Positions 9,251 through 16,223 of a stretch of 64,000 nucleotides of DNA are shown here, piece by piece. The notes under the pieces were generated by a model, which saw only the letters and a program-made list of their open reading frames with translations, did not search any database and was not told where the DNA came from. This DNA comes from an uncultured Spartobacteria bacterium. Lineage in GTDB: Bacteria; Verrucomicrobiota; Verrucomicrobiia; Chthoniobacterales; Chthoniobacteraceae. The stretch is from contig CAIZLD010000001.1 of assembly GCA_903933715.1 (NCBI GenBank), positions 1 to 64,000 of the forward strand, in the 5' to 3' direction. Both the position numbers and the translations under genes were made by a program. Each line of letters starts with the position of its first letter. Position 1 is the stretch's first letter.

Positions 9251-11903
<2,653 letters not shown>

Positions 11904-11928: not shown

Positions 11929-12885
11929 TTACTCACCTTGAGTTGCCCGCACCAAATAAAAGTGGGCCAGCGGATTGTTCGTTTCCTGCCGCGTCGTATC
12001 GCTCTGGTTGGCTTCGCAGAGCCGCCGGGCAAAATCCAGCGGCTCGCCGATTACAAAAAAACGGTTCTCCGCCGCCCCAACATTCACCGGGCCGGAATGA
12101 ACCGCAATTCCAAATTCAACCGCGATATTCCACCGCTCCCGACAGGCTTCACAAAACGGTTCGAGTCGCTTTTTTAACATCAGCGCGGCCTCGGACGCTT
12201 GCGAGGCGTGTTCAGGCTCAGGCAACACCGCGCCGAAAGCGGCGACCAGGTGTTCCGCATCCGCCTCGATCAAGACACCGCCCGCTTCCTTCAGCGTTTG
12301 TGAACCGACCTTGAGAAATCGCTTTGAAAAAAGCACGCCATCCCCAAAGGGAAGCGCTTGGGCGATCCGTGTGCCATTCAAAACGCGGCAGACGACCACA
12401 CCCGCTTCTCGTTGCTCCCCCTCAAACGGGAGCGGTTCATTGGAATCCAGCCAGCGGCGAAACGTCTTCCGGGAAATGCGCCCACCCAGCACGGTTTCCA
12501 AAGCCTGCCTTCGCCGCCCCGGTGCGCTCAAATGATAGACCAAGCCAAGAACGGTTCCCAAAATTCCGGCGGTCAGCGTGGTGAATGGACTCCACAAAAT
12601 ACCCCAAAGAAGCAAGACCCAGGAAAGGACCACGACTTCCAGCAGCGCAATCGCAGAAACCACGACCTTGAGCGAAAATGCCCGGATTTCGATACTCGTC
12701 CAAGCCAGCCCGAATCCAAGAAGGATCGCCCCGATCCACTGCACCCAAGCCGGCAACGCAAATCCCGCGCCCGCATCAAAAAATGCAAACCGGTTCAACG
12801 GCTCGAAGATCCCCATGCTCAACAAAAAAATCGAGAGGCTCGAGGCCAATGCGCCGCAGATAAAAGCTGCCCGGAAGGTTCGCAC
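11929..12885 (-). CDS. membrane protein with degenerate class III nucleotidyl cyclase domain
   Basis: Protein of 318 aa beginning with GTG at 12885. Residues about 5-120 contain four hydrophobic helices. Residues about 160-300 follow the outline of a class III adenylate/guanylate cyclase domain: AGVVVCRVLN at the first strand, GGVLIEADAEHLVAAFGAV in the middle, VEFGIAVHSGPVNVG, and the end motif VIGEPLDFARRL. The first metal-binding Asp (usually FxDI) is replaced in VVCRVL, and the Asn of the VNxAxRL motif is Asp, so cyclase activity is doubtful. It starts 17 bases after the Ser/Thr kinase gene on the same strand, so the two are probably one transcript, and the domain may act as a sensor or scaffold for the kinase. 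Homologous CHASE2-cyclase proteins are an alternative frame of reference. Confidence 0.65.
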   Translation of the reverse strand: MRTFRAAFICGALASSLSIFLLSMGIFEPLNRFAFFDAGAGFALPAWVQWIGAILLGFGLAWTSIEIRAFSLKVVVSAIALLEVVVLSWVLLLWGILWSPFTTLTAGILGTVLGLVYHLSAPGRRRQALETVLGGRISRKTFRRWLDSNEPLPFEGEQREAGVVVCRVLNGTRIAQALPFGDGVLFSKRFLKVGSQTLKEAGGVLIEADAEHLVAAFGAVLPEPEHASQASEAALMLKKRLEPFCEACRERWNIAVEFGIAVHSGPVNVGAAENRFFVIGEPLDFARRLCEANQSDTTRQETNNPLAHFYLVRATQGE

Positions 12886-12902
12886 GTTAATTTTTTCGGG
12901 CC

Positions 12903-15224
12903 TTAACGTCCCGACTCGAAAACGGAGAAATCGGCACGCCGATCCGGGCGGAGTTCAACCGCCTTTTTCAAGCGGGCCAGCCCTTCCTTGGAATAACCGG
13001 CTACGCAAGCATAAACGCCGCCGTACCAGAGCTTGTTGGGGTTGGACCCGGAGTCGGCCCAGACGAGCACGGTCGAGGGCATCACATCCGACCACGGAAC
13101 GGAAACCTCGCGGCCATCCACCCGGACCTGGATTTGGGCATCGTCCGCGCGTGAAATCGTCCCGACCAGCCAGGGTCCGCTCCGTCGCGCAATCCAGCGG
13201 GATCCGACGGTCGAGCGAGGCAGTTCATTGATGAGATTTTTTTTGAAATCGTCCACAAACTTCACCTTGCGCAAGAGCGCCTGTTTGCCTGTTTCGTCCG
13301 AACCGGCAACCGGCGTATCGGCAATCAATTGCATAGCCTGCGCCGGCATCATCTCGCTCAAAGCCTTCATCACCCGGGCATACAAGACCGGCAACGGCAC
13401 GGTTCCGCGCTGAACCCCGGAATCGGCGGCCGGCTGCAAATCGGGCTGTAACGATTTTTCATAAACCGCAAGCGCCTCCGGCAAACGGCCTGTTAGTTTG
13501 AGCTTTGCTTTAACCCCGGGAATCCGGGGGAGAATCGCCGCCCGGTTTTCCGGCGTTTTCGCGGATTTGATGAGCTCATCCAAAGCGCGGAAACTGTCGT
13601 AATCGGCGCGATACTGCGCGACCAAAGGTTTGAAATCGTTCAGCCAGACCCAGCCTCCCTTCGGCTTGGCGGCCATGAACCGCTGGAAGAAGTTGTCCGC
13701 GATTTCAAACCGGGAAGCGTCCCATTCCTTCAAACCGGCAATCAGGCATCCGGCCGGTTCATAGGTTTCCGCAGAGGAGGCAACCAAAAACGTATTTTCG
13801 CGAATCCCCATGAGCCCTTTGAGAGCGGCCGAAAATAGCCGTCGCTGCCCATCATCGGCCATATCTTTTCCCGGGACTCCCCCATCGTAGCGCGCAACAA
13901 TGGCGCTCGCGCTCAAGAAGTCTCCCTGTAGCAATTTGGCGATGCAATGGTGCAAAACGATCCAGGTCTTTAGCGGCTCGGTGAGATTCGGCCGATTTCC
14001 GAGCGAAATTAACAATTTAACCGCCTCATCAAAATTGCCTTTGATGATTTCCTTCCGGGCGTTGCCGAGCATTTGTTCGCTGGAATTGGAGGAACGCTCC
14101 ATCTGTTGCCGGGCCAATTCTTCGACGCTGGCGTTGCGGCTGAAAATCGAATCCCGATACAGATAGAGGATCAACCCGAGGATGAGCGTAAACGCGAGCA
14201 TGCTCATCATGATGTACCCCATCACGTTTTGCTGTTTCTCGTCTTCCATGACCACGCGGGTCTTGGGCTGGCGGGCGCTCCCGGCATTTTCCAGCAGTTG
14301 CGAGCGGGCGTATTCCAGATGCTCGATCAACTCGTCGTAAGATTGATAACGGTCGCCGGGGTTCTTCGCCAAGGTCCGGTTGATCACGTAGGCGGTGGGG
14401 CTCGAAATATCGGGCGCAAACGCCTGCAAGCTGACCGCCTGGTTTTTGAGATGCTTGAGCGCAACAAGGGAAGCGTTCTCGGCCTCGAACGGCGGACGAC
14501 CCGCCAGCGCATGGAAGAGCGTCCCCCCCAGGCTGTAAATGTCGCTGCGGAAATCTTCCGGGTCATGGTTGAGTTTTTCGGGAGCAACGTAATAAGGGGT
14601 GCCCCAAATATCGGCCTCCCCCTCCTGCGCTTGCTCCAACGGCATCGCCAGCCCAAAGTCCACGATCTTCGCCGTGTGCGCGTCGGCAAACAGAATATTG
14701 CCCGGCTTGACGTCCCGGTGAATCAATCCGGCTTGGTAGGCGGCTCGCAGCCCCTGCGCCACCTGGCTGCCGATTTCCAGCACTTGCGCCTCGGCGATGC
14801 GTTGTTGCAAATTCATCAGGTCATCGAGGGAACCTTTGTCCACCAGTTCCATCGCGATGTAGTAAACGCTGCGGTCGCAGCCGAACGAGAAAACTTCGAC
14901 GACGTTGGGATGAGCCACCGAAGCGGTGATTTTCGCTTCGGTCTCCAATTTTTCAATATACTCGGCGTCGGCGCTGAACTCCTTGCGCAGCAGCTTGAGC
15001 GCGAGAATCCGGTTCAGGTTGACGTCCCGGGCCTTGTAGACAGTGCCCATTCCGCCCGAGGCGATGAACTCCAGCAGCTCAAAATGATCGAACCGGGTGC
15101 GGACCCGCATGGAGGTATCGCAGCTCGGGCAATTGATTTCTGAAAAAGGCTCCTGCTCGCTGACATCGAGCAAGGCACCGCATTTCGGGCAGGTATGAAG
15201 GACGGTTTCAACTTCGGAAGGCAT
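12903..15224 (-). CDS. membrane-bound Ser/Thr protein kinase with N-terminal zinc ribbon
   Basis: Hanks-type kinase of 773 aa. It opens with a zinc ribbon (CPKCGALLD and CPSCDTSM, residues 12-38). The kinase domain spans about 48-300: glycine loop FIASGGMGTVYKARD, ATP-binding Lys 77 (ALKLL), catalytic loop LIHRDVKPGNILF with Asp 171, DFG Asp 189, and YYVAPEKL. One transmembrane helix (about 335-356) is followed by a large extracytoplasmic part of about 400 aa, helical and repeat-like in places (TPR-type), ending with a strand-rich segment (GTISRADDAQIQVRVDGREV). The start at 15224 was chosen because the open frame further upstream is the antisense of rluD. A cyclase-like gene follows 17 bases downstream. 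Substrates are unknown. Confidence 0.92.
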   Translation of the reverse strand: MPSEVETVLHTCPKCGALLDVSEQEPFSEINCPSCDTSMRVRTRFDHFELLEFIASGGMGTVYKARDVNLNRILALKLLRKEFSADAEYIEKLETEAKITASVAHPNVVEVFSFGCDRSVYYIAMELVDKGSLDDLMNLQQRIAEAQVLEIGSQVAQGLRAAYQAGLIHRDVKPGNILFADAHTAKIVDFGLAMPLEQAQEGEADIWGTPYYVAPEKLNHDPEDFRSDIYSLGGTLFHALAGRPPFEAENASLVALKHLKNQAVSLQAFAPDISSPTAYVINRTLAKNPGDRYQSYDELIEHLEYARSQLLENAGSARQPKTRVVMEDEKQQNVMGYIMMSMLAFTLILGLILYLYRDSIFSRNASVEELARQQMERSSNSSEQMLGNARKEIIKGNFDEAVKLLISLGNRPNLTEPLKTWIVLHHCIAKLLQGDFLSASAIVARYDGGVPGKDMADDGQRRLFSAALKGLMGIRENTFLVASSAETYEPAGCLIAGLKEWDASRFEIADNFFQRFMAAKPKGGWVWLNDFKPLVAQYRADYDSFRALDELIKSAKTPENRAAILPRIPGVKAKLKLTGRLPEALAVYEKSLQPDLQPAADSGVQRGTVPLPVLYARVMKALSEMMPAQAMQLIADTPVAGSDETGKQALLRKVKFVDDFKKNLINELPRSTVGSRWIARRSGPWLVGTISRADDAQIQVRVDGREVSVPWSDVMPSTVLVWADSGSNPNKLWYGGVYACVAGYSKEGLARLKKAVELRPDRRADFSVFESGR

Positions 15225-15323: not shown

Positions 15324-16223
15324 ATGCCGGAATACCCCGTTTCTGCCGAAGCCGCCGGTCATCGTCTGGATCATTTTCTGGCCACGCTGCTTCCCCATCT
15401 CTCCCGTTCCCGGCTTCAGGCCCTGGTTAAGGAAGGACATATTCTCGTCGATTCCCGACCCGCCAAACCGGCCGATAAATTGCATCCCGGCAGTCTCGTT
15501 TCCGTTCACGAACCGCCTCCCGCCCCGGTCTCGGGAACGCTCGCCGAAGATATTCCCCTGGAAATTCTTTTTGAAGACAGCGACCTCCTGGTTCTCAACA
15601 AACCGGCCGGAATGGTGGTTCATCCGGCCGCAGGCAATCCGGACGGAACGCTCGTGAACGCGCTGCTGCACCATTGCACCGAGCTTTCGGGCATCGGCGG
15701 CGAGCAACGACCCGGAATCATCCATCGGCTCGACAAGGAAACCAGCGGCTGCCTCGTGGTGGCCAAAAACGACCGCGCCCACCAGGGGCTTTCGAAACAA
15801 TTTGCTGAACGCGAGGTGTTAAAGGTTTACCTGGCGCTGGTCGCCGGACATCTCAAGAAAAAATCCGGGGTCATTGAAGCCGAAATCGGGCGGCACCCGG
15901 TTCACCGCAAGAAAATGAGCGTGGTCACGACCGGCCGGGGGCGCCATTCCATCACAGATTACCGGGTTTTACGCGAACTGCCCGCCGCGAGCCTGGTCGA
16001 ATGCACGCTCCATACCGGGCGCACCCATCAGATCCGCGTTCACCTGAAGCATTTGGGCCACCCGCTCCTGGGGGACGAACTTTACGGCAAACGCAGCGGG
16101 TACGCACGCCAGATGCTACATGCCTGGAAGCTTGGCTTTACCCACCCCGGCACCGGCCAGTGGATGGCATTCCAAGCCGCCATCCCGCAAGATTTCATCG
16201 CGGCAGGAGCCGTGCCGGAGTAA
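15324..16223 (+). CDS. rluD: ribosomal large subunit pseudouridine synthase RluD-like
   Basis: Pseudouridine synthase of 299 aa, RluA/RluD family. An N-terminal S4 RNA-binding domain (LDHFLATLLPHLSRSRLQAL, about 14-33) precedes the catalytic domain with IIHRLDKETSGCLVVAKN, where the Asp in HRLDKETSG is the catalytic nucleophile. The C-terminal motif CTLHTGRTHQIRVHLKHLGHP is intact across its two halves. Family members isomerise U1911, U1915 and U1917 (RluD) or other 23S or tRNA uridines. With the S4 domain and length, RluD is the best match. The next gene, a uracil-DNA glycosylase, starts 15 bases later and is likely co-transcribed. Confidence 0.9.
   Translation: MPEYPVSAEAAGHRLDHFLATLLPHLSRSRLQALVKEGHILVDSRPAKPADKLHPGSLVSVHEPPPAPVSGTLAEDIPLEILFEDSDLLVLNKPAGMVVHPAAGNPDGTLVNALLHHCTELSGIGGEQRPGIIHRLDKETSGCLVVAKNDRAHQGLSKQFAEREVLKVYLALVAGHLKKKSGVIEAEIGRHPVHRKKMSVVTTGRGRHSITDYRVLRELPAASLVECTLHTGRTHQIRVHLKHLGHPLLGDELYGKRSGYARQMLHAWKLGFTHPGTGQWMAFQAAIPQDFIAAGAVPE

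Follow-up and report, generated by a model that had tools for sequence, protein, structure and literature searches.

What a membrane protein with the outline of a class III cyclase and a rebuilt active site might do beside a Ser/Thr kinase is the question raised by a locus on contig CAIZLD010000001.1 (assembly GCA_903933715.1), which belongs to an uncultured Spartobacteria bacterium. The 64,000 nucleotides that were analysed (positions 1 to 64,000) are called the window here. An earlier note on this DNA had described a kinase gene followed by a gene for a degenerate cyclase-like protein, 17 bases apart on one strand, and had proposed that the latter is a signalling platform or kinase substrate rather than a cyclase. 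The observation is real, as both genes and the motifs quoted for them are found at the locus on the minus strand (Table 1). As for its interpretation, the non-enzyme reading is well supported, and conservation of the gene pair is found in part only. The cyclase-like protein, called the pseudocyclase below, is read here, with a confidence slightly better than even, as a non-catalytic sensor or scaffold retained from an old gene cluster.

The N-terminal region of the window pseudocyclase is hydrophobic (about residues 3-104) and is followed by a basic stretch at residues 118-140 with six Lys or Arg residues and by a lobe of the class III cyclase type (about residues 155-290). The two motifs that had been quoted as the cyclase outline are present, VEFGIAVHSGPVNVG at residues 256-270 and VIGEPLDFARRL at residues 278-289. 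By itself the protein has no match in Pfam or NCBIfam and reaches only E=0.37 against solved chains, because this copy is too eroded to be recognised; its relatives settle the class III identity. A profile of 21 relatives, the window copy (P0001) included, matches 43 distinct PDB sequences, all of them named adenylate, guanylate or nucleotide cyclases, with a best E-value of 3.6e-28 and with 6fht, 2w01 and 3r5g (CyaB) as the best three. Individually, 15 of the 21 match PF00211 (E<=0.01), the window copy not being among them. Judged by sequence profiles, the lobe is a homologue of class III catalytic domains.

Matches to the window pseudocyclase are found in 49 of 57 genomes, its own included (E<=0.001), the weaker ones looking like ordinary cyclases. 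The main count comprises 55 short members and 19 longer cyclases, drawn from 75 rows of which one, a duplicate half-gene of G047, was dropped; the longer cyclases were chosen by hand from many longer matches, and loci L102-L131 were excluded as duplicates. Thirty-five of the 49 matching genomes are within the 55, the other 14 being G005, G007, G016, G021, G024, G027, G029, G030, G031, G032, G034, G035, G037 and G039. A single branch with a support of 100/100 separates the 55 short members from the 19 longer cyclases; only this split of the tree was used, since it came with a warning of few columns and long branches. The CHASE2 domain is absent from all 21 short members scanned and present in five of the seven longer cyclases scanned. 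When the copy of G049 was used as a query, at least 10 of 337 genomes of the phylum matched at E<=1e-42, a lower bound because the window genome (G000) itself misses this threshold, and all ten matches fall in the order of the window or in a single further family of its class (f35).

Catalytic positions were read from an alignment with the longer cyclases found in related genomes, in which they lie in the segments FSD, DKYIGDA and YTVxGDxVNLASRL. In the window pseudocyclase R167 and E211 replace both metal-binding Asp residues (Me1 and Me2), E207 is found at the base-selecting Lys position and F277 at the Thr position, and D284 takes the place of the transition-state Asn, with the Arg retained as R288. 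The Asp described earlier at the catalytic Asn position is therefore D284, and the loss of a metal Asp is likewise correct except for its extent, as both are gone and not one. According to Ramakrishnan et al. (2016; PMC4886424), class III enzymes are defined by metal, substrate and transition-state residues, and an atypical cyclase may have another residue instead of the Asn, as Rv1900c does with His. The window protein has neither the two metal Asp residues nor the combination of transition-state Asn and Arg.

This state is not confined to the window genome. The full set of Asp, Asp and Asn is found in none of the 55 short members vs 18 of the 19 longer cyclases. Me1 is Glu in 25 short members, Ser in 10, Arg in 6, Asp in 5, Thr in 4, Ala in 2 and Gln, His or Val in one each, while Me2 is Glu in 45, Asp in 2 and some other residue in the remainder. 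The Lys position holds Glu in 37 of the 55 and Lys in none; the Asn position holds Glu in 34, Asp in 15 and Asn in none, and the Arg is retained in 40. That activity was lost only locally, in the window genome, can be rejected, as all 55 members are without the catalytic set, and the degeneracy is, by this comparison, a property of an old family. The view that the protein is a degenerate cyclase and not an enzyme is well supported by these counts and by two genomes of the same genus whose copies end before the Asn/Arg helix with open reading frames and a ratio of nonsynonymous to synonymous divergence (dN/dS) of 0.19. That the pseudocyclase acts as a cyclase appears very unlikely.

At the former active site the short family has residues of its own. 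Cys at position 166 is found in 43 of the 55 short members (Ser in 15 of the 19 longer cyclases), Asn at 170 in 51 (Gly in 15), Cys at 208 in 42 (Tyr or Phe in all 19), Glu at 211 in 45 (Asp in 18), Arg at 214 in 45 (Met in 15) and Arg at 287 in 43 (Ser or Ala in 17). The window copy retains C166, N170, E211, R287 and R288, and the conserved C208, G210 and R214 are changed in it. Such family-specific conservation looks like re-use of the pocket and not like plain decay. Because the protein has been kept across the order without the catalytic set, and the family conserves a distinct pocket, a non-catalytic role as sensor, regulator or scaffold would be expected.

Degenerate cyclase domains were also seen elsewhere. 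A genome scan by peptide patterns yielded one weak relative only (L001); the protein at L001:4041-5465 carries a HAMP domain and likewise a degenerate cyclase domain (VAELCGF, SLEKSADES), seemingly of independent origin. At L161:610-2136 a cyclase-like protein of 508 amino acids has Gly, Gly and Ser at the Me1, Me2 and Asn positions, and as it clusters with the longer cyclases, it represents a separate loss of catalytic residues.

The kinase carries a Pkinase domain at residues 49-302 (PF00069, E=1.6e-49) in which all motifs of a Hanks-type kinase are intact, namely GGMGTV, ALKLL with its Lys, HRDVKPGN, DFG (DFGLA) and APE (APEK). The zinc ribbon and the transmembrane helix attributed to it earlier are found as four Cys residues (C12, C15, C32 and C35) and as one strongly hydrophobic segment at residues 333-357, and the large extracytoplasmic region corresponds to the 416 residues after this segment, which are probably outside the membrane. 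Membrane orientation was judged from charge only; by this pattern the kinase domain and the cyclase-like lobe would both be expected in the cytoplasm. In the genus of the window (five genomes, G000-G004) the order kinase-pseudocyclase-recR, whose third gene the earlier note had passed over, is found in every genome, and the spacing suggests that kinase and pseudocyclase are probably co-transcribed there.

This genus differs from its relatives in several respects. PF00211 has no match in any of its five genomes. Elsewhere in the family each genome has 2-13 matches, some of which may be pseudocyclases that the model still recognises; outside the family, 5 of the 21 genomes in the set (G041, G044, G045, G046 and G050) are likewise without a match. 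Therefore no recognisable catalytic partner exists in the five genomes, and synthesis of cyclic AMP by the pseudocyclase, alone or with a class III partner, is unlikely there. That the window pseudocyclase forms a heterodimer with a true cyclase was rejected on the same grounds, with the reservation that a gene could be missed in a genome that is 97% complete. One protein of the CRP-like cyclic nucleotide-binding type remains in G000 (L172).

Relative to recR, the pseudocyclase of the window genus evolves about twice as fast as elsewhere, with a median distance ratio of 3.90 (10 pairs) vs 1.83 for other members of the family (120 pairs) and 2.03 for other families (231 pairs). The kinase has no such jump relative to its family, its ratio being 2.48 in the genus (10 pairs) vs 2.23 in the family, from three pairs only, although it likewise exceeds the 1.44 of other families (66 pairs). 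Three of the five pseudocyclase copies of the genus have been shortened by two different deletions. The window copy has lost about 79 residues internally after residue 299 compared with full-length relatives and keeps the C-terminal tail of the family in frame, while the copies of G001 and G003 have a common end before the Asn/Arg helix. In these two genomes the kinase and pseudocyclase genes are both shortened at their 3' ends, the kinase frames (L062:3177-5006 and L064:11109-12935) having 609 and 608 codons, about 160 residues fewer than the 773 of the window kinase; an earlier search had given a longer frame for G001. The pseudocyclase frames are nevertheless open in all five genomes, by which a pseudogene through frameshift is rejected. 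For G001 and G003, the closest pair, dN is 0.24 and dS 1.26, giving the ratio of 0.19 already mentioned, with 0.10 for the kinase and 0.05 for recR; the pseudocyclase ratio is 0.19-0.44 in the nine pairs, out of ten, whose dS is finite, values that are approximate because dS is near saturation and yet well under 1.

The surroundings of the pseudocyclase in related genomes indicate which proteins it may have worked with. Neighbours were counted within set limits, namely 700 bases downstream for recR, 400 bases upstream for a ClpX-like gene and, on the same strand, 5.5 kb upstream for a kinase of this type, with the proviso that short contigs or stretches may hide further links. Of the 55 genomes, 42 then have recR after the pseudocyclase, 21 a ClpX-like gene directly before it and 20 a kinase upstream. 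The latter comprise the five genomes of the window genus, in which the ClpX-like gene is missing from the order, five of family f13, and ten from families f2, f6, f8, f9 and f12 with the ClpX-like gene in between; an eleventh case of kinase and ClpX-like linkage is split over two contigs of G047 (L091) and stands outside both counts. The complete order, with rluD divergent from kinase, ClpX-like gene, pseudocyclase and recR, is found for example in G053, G051, G202, G206, G232 and G148, the kinase of G148 being in two frames. In G043 rluD is further off, and in G052 a gene for a thioredoxin-like protein is inserted. Inserted thioredoxin-like genes in the cluster of family f8 lie at L081:10931-11839 and L080:11402-12301.

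Conservation of the gene pair, which the earlier note had made a touchstone of its proposal, thus holds for the window genus and, with the ClpX-like gene in between, for ten genomes from five further families of its order. It does not hold for the rest of the window's own family, in which none of the 16 members examined has a kinase at this place, although fewer than 5.5 kb of upstream sequence were available in five of them (G006, G013, G014, G022 and G028). In G006, counted as unlinked, one contig closes with the kinase and the first part of the ClpX-like gene, and another opens with the last part of that gene, the pseudocyclase and recR, which looks like a cluster broken between contigs. 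The kinases of family f13 lie 367-472 bases upstream of the pseudocyclase with no ClpX-like gene, and as only two of the five are in the kinase tree, both divergent, these five cases of linkage possibly involve kinases that are not orthologues of the window kinase. Taken together, the link between kinase and pseudocyclase is recurrent and probably old, and not obligatory.

The ClpX-like protein scores 352-1136 bits with the query from G049 (227 for one piece at a contig end). Nearly every genome also has a shorter match of 187-233 bits (lower for fragments), which is taken to be ordinary ClpX, with the ClpX-like protein as its paralogue. The Cys4 pattern of the ClpX zinc domain was found in none of 24 ClpX-like frames, three of which are cut by contig ends and for which ordinary ClpX was not run as a control. 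Walker A and the GYVG pore loop are each present in 23 of the 24, an IGF-type loop in 21 and Walker B in 20; the one member scanned against the curated ClpX model reached 329.2 bits, under the cut-off of 359. In several related families this AAA+ paralogue, for example at L078:9286-10830, lies between kinase and pseudocyclase and has a long C-terminal extension. The window genus has no ClpX-like paralogue by the same query, as only the short match is found in G000-G003 and nothing at threshold in G004.

From gene order and residue patterns, the following model can be proposed. The window genes would be the remainder of an old cluster of divergent rluD, membrane Ser/Thr kinase, ClpX-like unfoldase, pseudocyclase and recR, and the pseudocyclase would be a membrane-anchored protein of the class III cyclase fold unable to cyclise nucleotides. 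Its lobe, probably a dimer as in the enzymatic relatives, may use the rebuilt pocket to bind a ligand or partner and hand its state to a partner protein. In the ancestor this partner may have been the kinase or the ClpX-like unfoldase, and in the window genus the kinase alone is left; the best candidates are accordingly the kinase in this genus and the unfoldase in its relatives. The ancestral cluster, dimer, ligand binding, kinase coupling and direction of signalling are all putative. A more far-reaching version, in which Ser/Thr kinase, zinc-domain-less ClpX-like unfoldase and membrane pseudocyclase form a hitherto undescribed signalling module whose former second-messenger synthase, with its rebuilt and conserved pocket, is a non-catalytic ligand receptor governing phosphorylation-dependent proteolysis, with the window genus as a stripped kinase-pseudocyclase version, is speculative and rather improbable.

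Several observations weigh against the sensor or scaffold reading. Ligand binding and dimer formation are without structural support, the sole model of the window pseudocyclase, a single-sequence AlphaFold2 prediction, being poor (mean predicted local distance difference test score, pLDDT, 43.3; predicted template modelling score, pTM, 0.26). The linked kinases do not form one clade, with 8 label changes on the kinase tree (shuffled mean 12.6), kinase and pseudocyclase each occur without the other, and the kinase was not found at its place in any of the 16 other family members examined, five of them with short upstream sequence. Glu at the Lys position fits a guanylate-type cyclase and is no argument against activity on its own, because the solved cyclase 2w01 also has Glu there. 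Lastly, the rapid evolution and the loss of conserved parts in the window genus fit decay as well.

The alternatives can be weighed against the same evidence. If the neighbouring kinase phosphorylated the pseudocyclase directly and docked on it at the membrane, the phosphorylated lobe recruiting or releasing effectors, this would agree with the adjacent and probably co-transcribed genes of all five window-genus genomes, the intact kinase motifs, the cytoplasmic placement expected for both domains and the joint 3' shortening in G001 and G003. The sequence gives no readable phosphosite, however, and the pair was not found linked in any of the 16 other family members (upstream sequence short in five). 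A putative role as substrate or platform is plausible in kind, and this specific account is given a low probability. A similarly low probability is given to the view that the pseudocyclase gene is now being lost from the window genus, relaxed in constraint after the loss of the ClpX-like partner and of true cyclases, with its C-terminal part lost more than once. For the window copy this decay deserves weight in light of the raised distance ratio, the two different deletions among three shortened copies and the changes at C208, G210 and R214; against it, all frames are open with dN/dS well under 1 (dS near saturation), the family tail is still in frame in the window copy, and full-length copies persist in other genera of the family that have no ClpX-like paralogue, such as G008, G012, G014 and G015. 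By far the least credible is a family that is still enzymatic with altered chemistry, in which a nucleotide reaction is supported by Glu at both metal positions together with the conserved Arg. The 28 of 55 short members that are acidic at both metal sites, the frequent Arg, the Glu shared with 2w01 and the conserved family-specific pocket would suit it, but Me1 is Ser, Thr, Ala, Arg, Gln, His or Val in 25 of 55, R167 of the window included, Asn never occurs at its position, and the whole Asn/Arg helix is gone in G001 and G003. The non-catalytic sensor or scaffold retained from the old cluster is the most likely reading.

Among known systems, the CHASE2-type class III cyclases of related genomes (PF05226 with PF00211) have the same catalytic-domain fold by profile, with a match that extends into the membrane segments before the lobe; they are longer, 685-838 amino acids for 18 of the 19 compared with about 420 in the short family, which differs in its lack of CHASE2 (21 members scanned) and of the catalytic set. 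The solved cyclases 2w01 (Cya2) and 3r5g align across the whole lobe, although both metal Asp residues and the Asn are replaced in the short family. The proteins described in PMC4886424 are likewise distant bacterial relatives of class III cyclases, and the Asn and base positions of some of them hold unusual residues; they are reported from Actinobacteria, Bacteroidetes and Proteobacteria, and, unlike the short family, almost all keep the metal Asp residues and they lack transmembrane helices, the string "verrucomicrob" occurring 0 times in the main text. The cyclase PycC of the anti-phage Pycsar system is matched weakly in PADLOC (E=0.0022 for the window copy, 7.5e-11 for that of G049), and the metal Asp and Asn residues are missing in the pseudocyclase, which is thus not assigned to it.

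An old, vertically kept non-catalytic branch of the bacterial class III cyclases was not found described in the open-licence literature; nor was any paper on this family or on the cluster of kinase, ClpX-like gene and pseudocyclase, although a search of open-licence papers only is weak evidence of absence. Non-catalytic receptors derived from cyclic di-GMP synthases are well known, the GGDEF proteins LapD and PelD being cases in which the fold of a second-messenger synthase serves as a non-catalytic membrane sensor. They are analogous in working, but belong to a different enzyme class and have a known ligand, while the pseudocyclase has none. The window genus, with no PF00211 match in five genomes, offers a clean test case for the role of the pseudocyclase, and the recurrent gene order points to the kinase and the ClpX-like unfoldase as candidate partners.

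Table 1. The kinase-pseudocyclase locus and its borders, in positions of the window
Feature	Positions	Strand	Remarks
recR	11298..11903	-	25 bases downstream of the pseudocyclase gene, same strand
Non-catalytic class III cyclase-like membrane protein (pseudocyclase) gene, 318 aa, GTG start	11929..12885	-	identified by profile of relatives
Kinase-pseudocyclase gap, 17 bases	12886..12902	-	ClpX-like gene at this place in several related families
Membrane Ser/Thr protein kinase gene, 773 aa	12903..15224	-	Pkinase match, motifs
rluD-type pseudouridine synthase gene	15324..16223	+	divergent from kinase; recurrent cluster border

A Ser/Thr kinase and a class III cyclase domain also occur together in the TOMM kinase/cyclase fusions (TIGR03903), as a single polypeptide there and as two genes in the window. 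The window kinase scores 97.3 bits with this model and two relatives of the pseudocyclase 28.1 and 26.1 bits, far below the cut-off of 705.75. The PADLOC matches of the kinase are mostly to PD-T4-6 kinase models.

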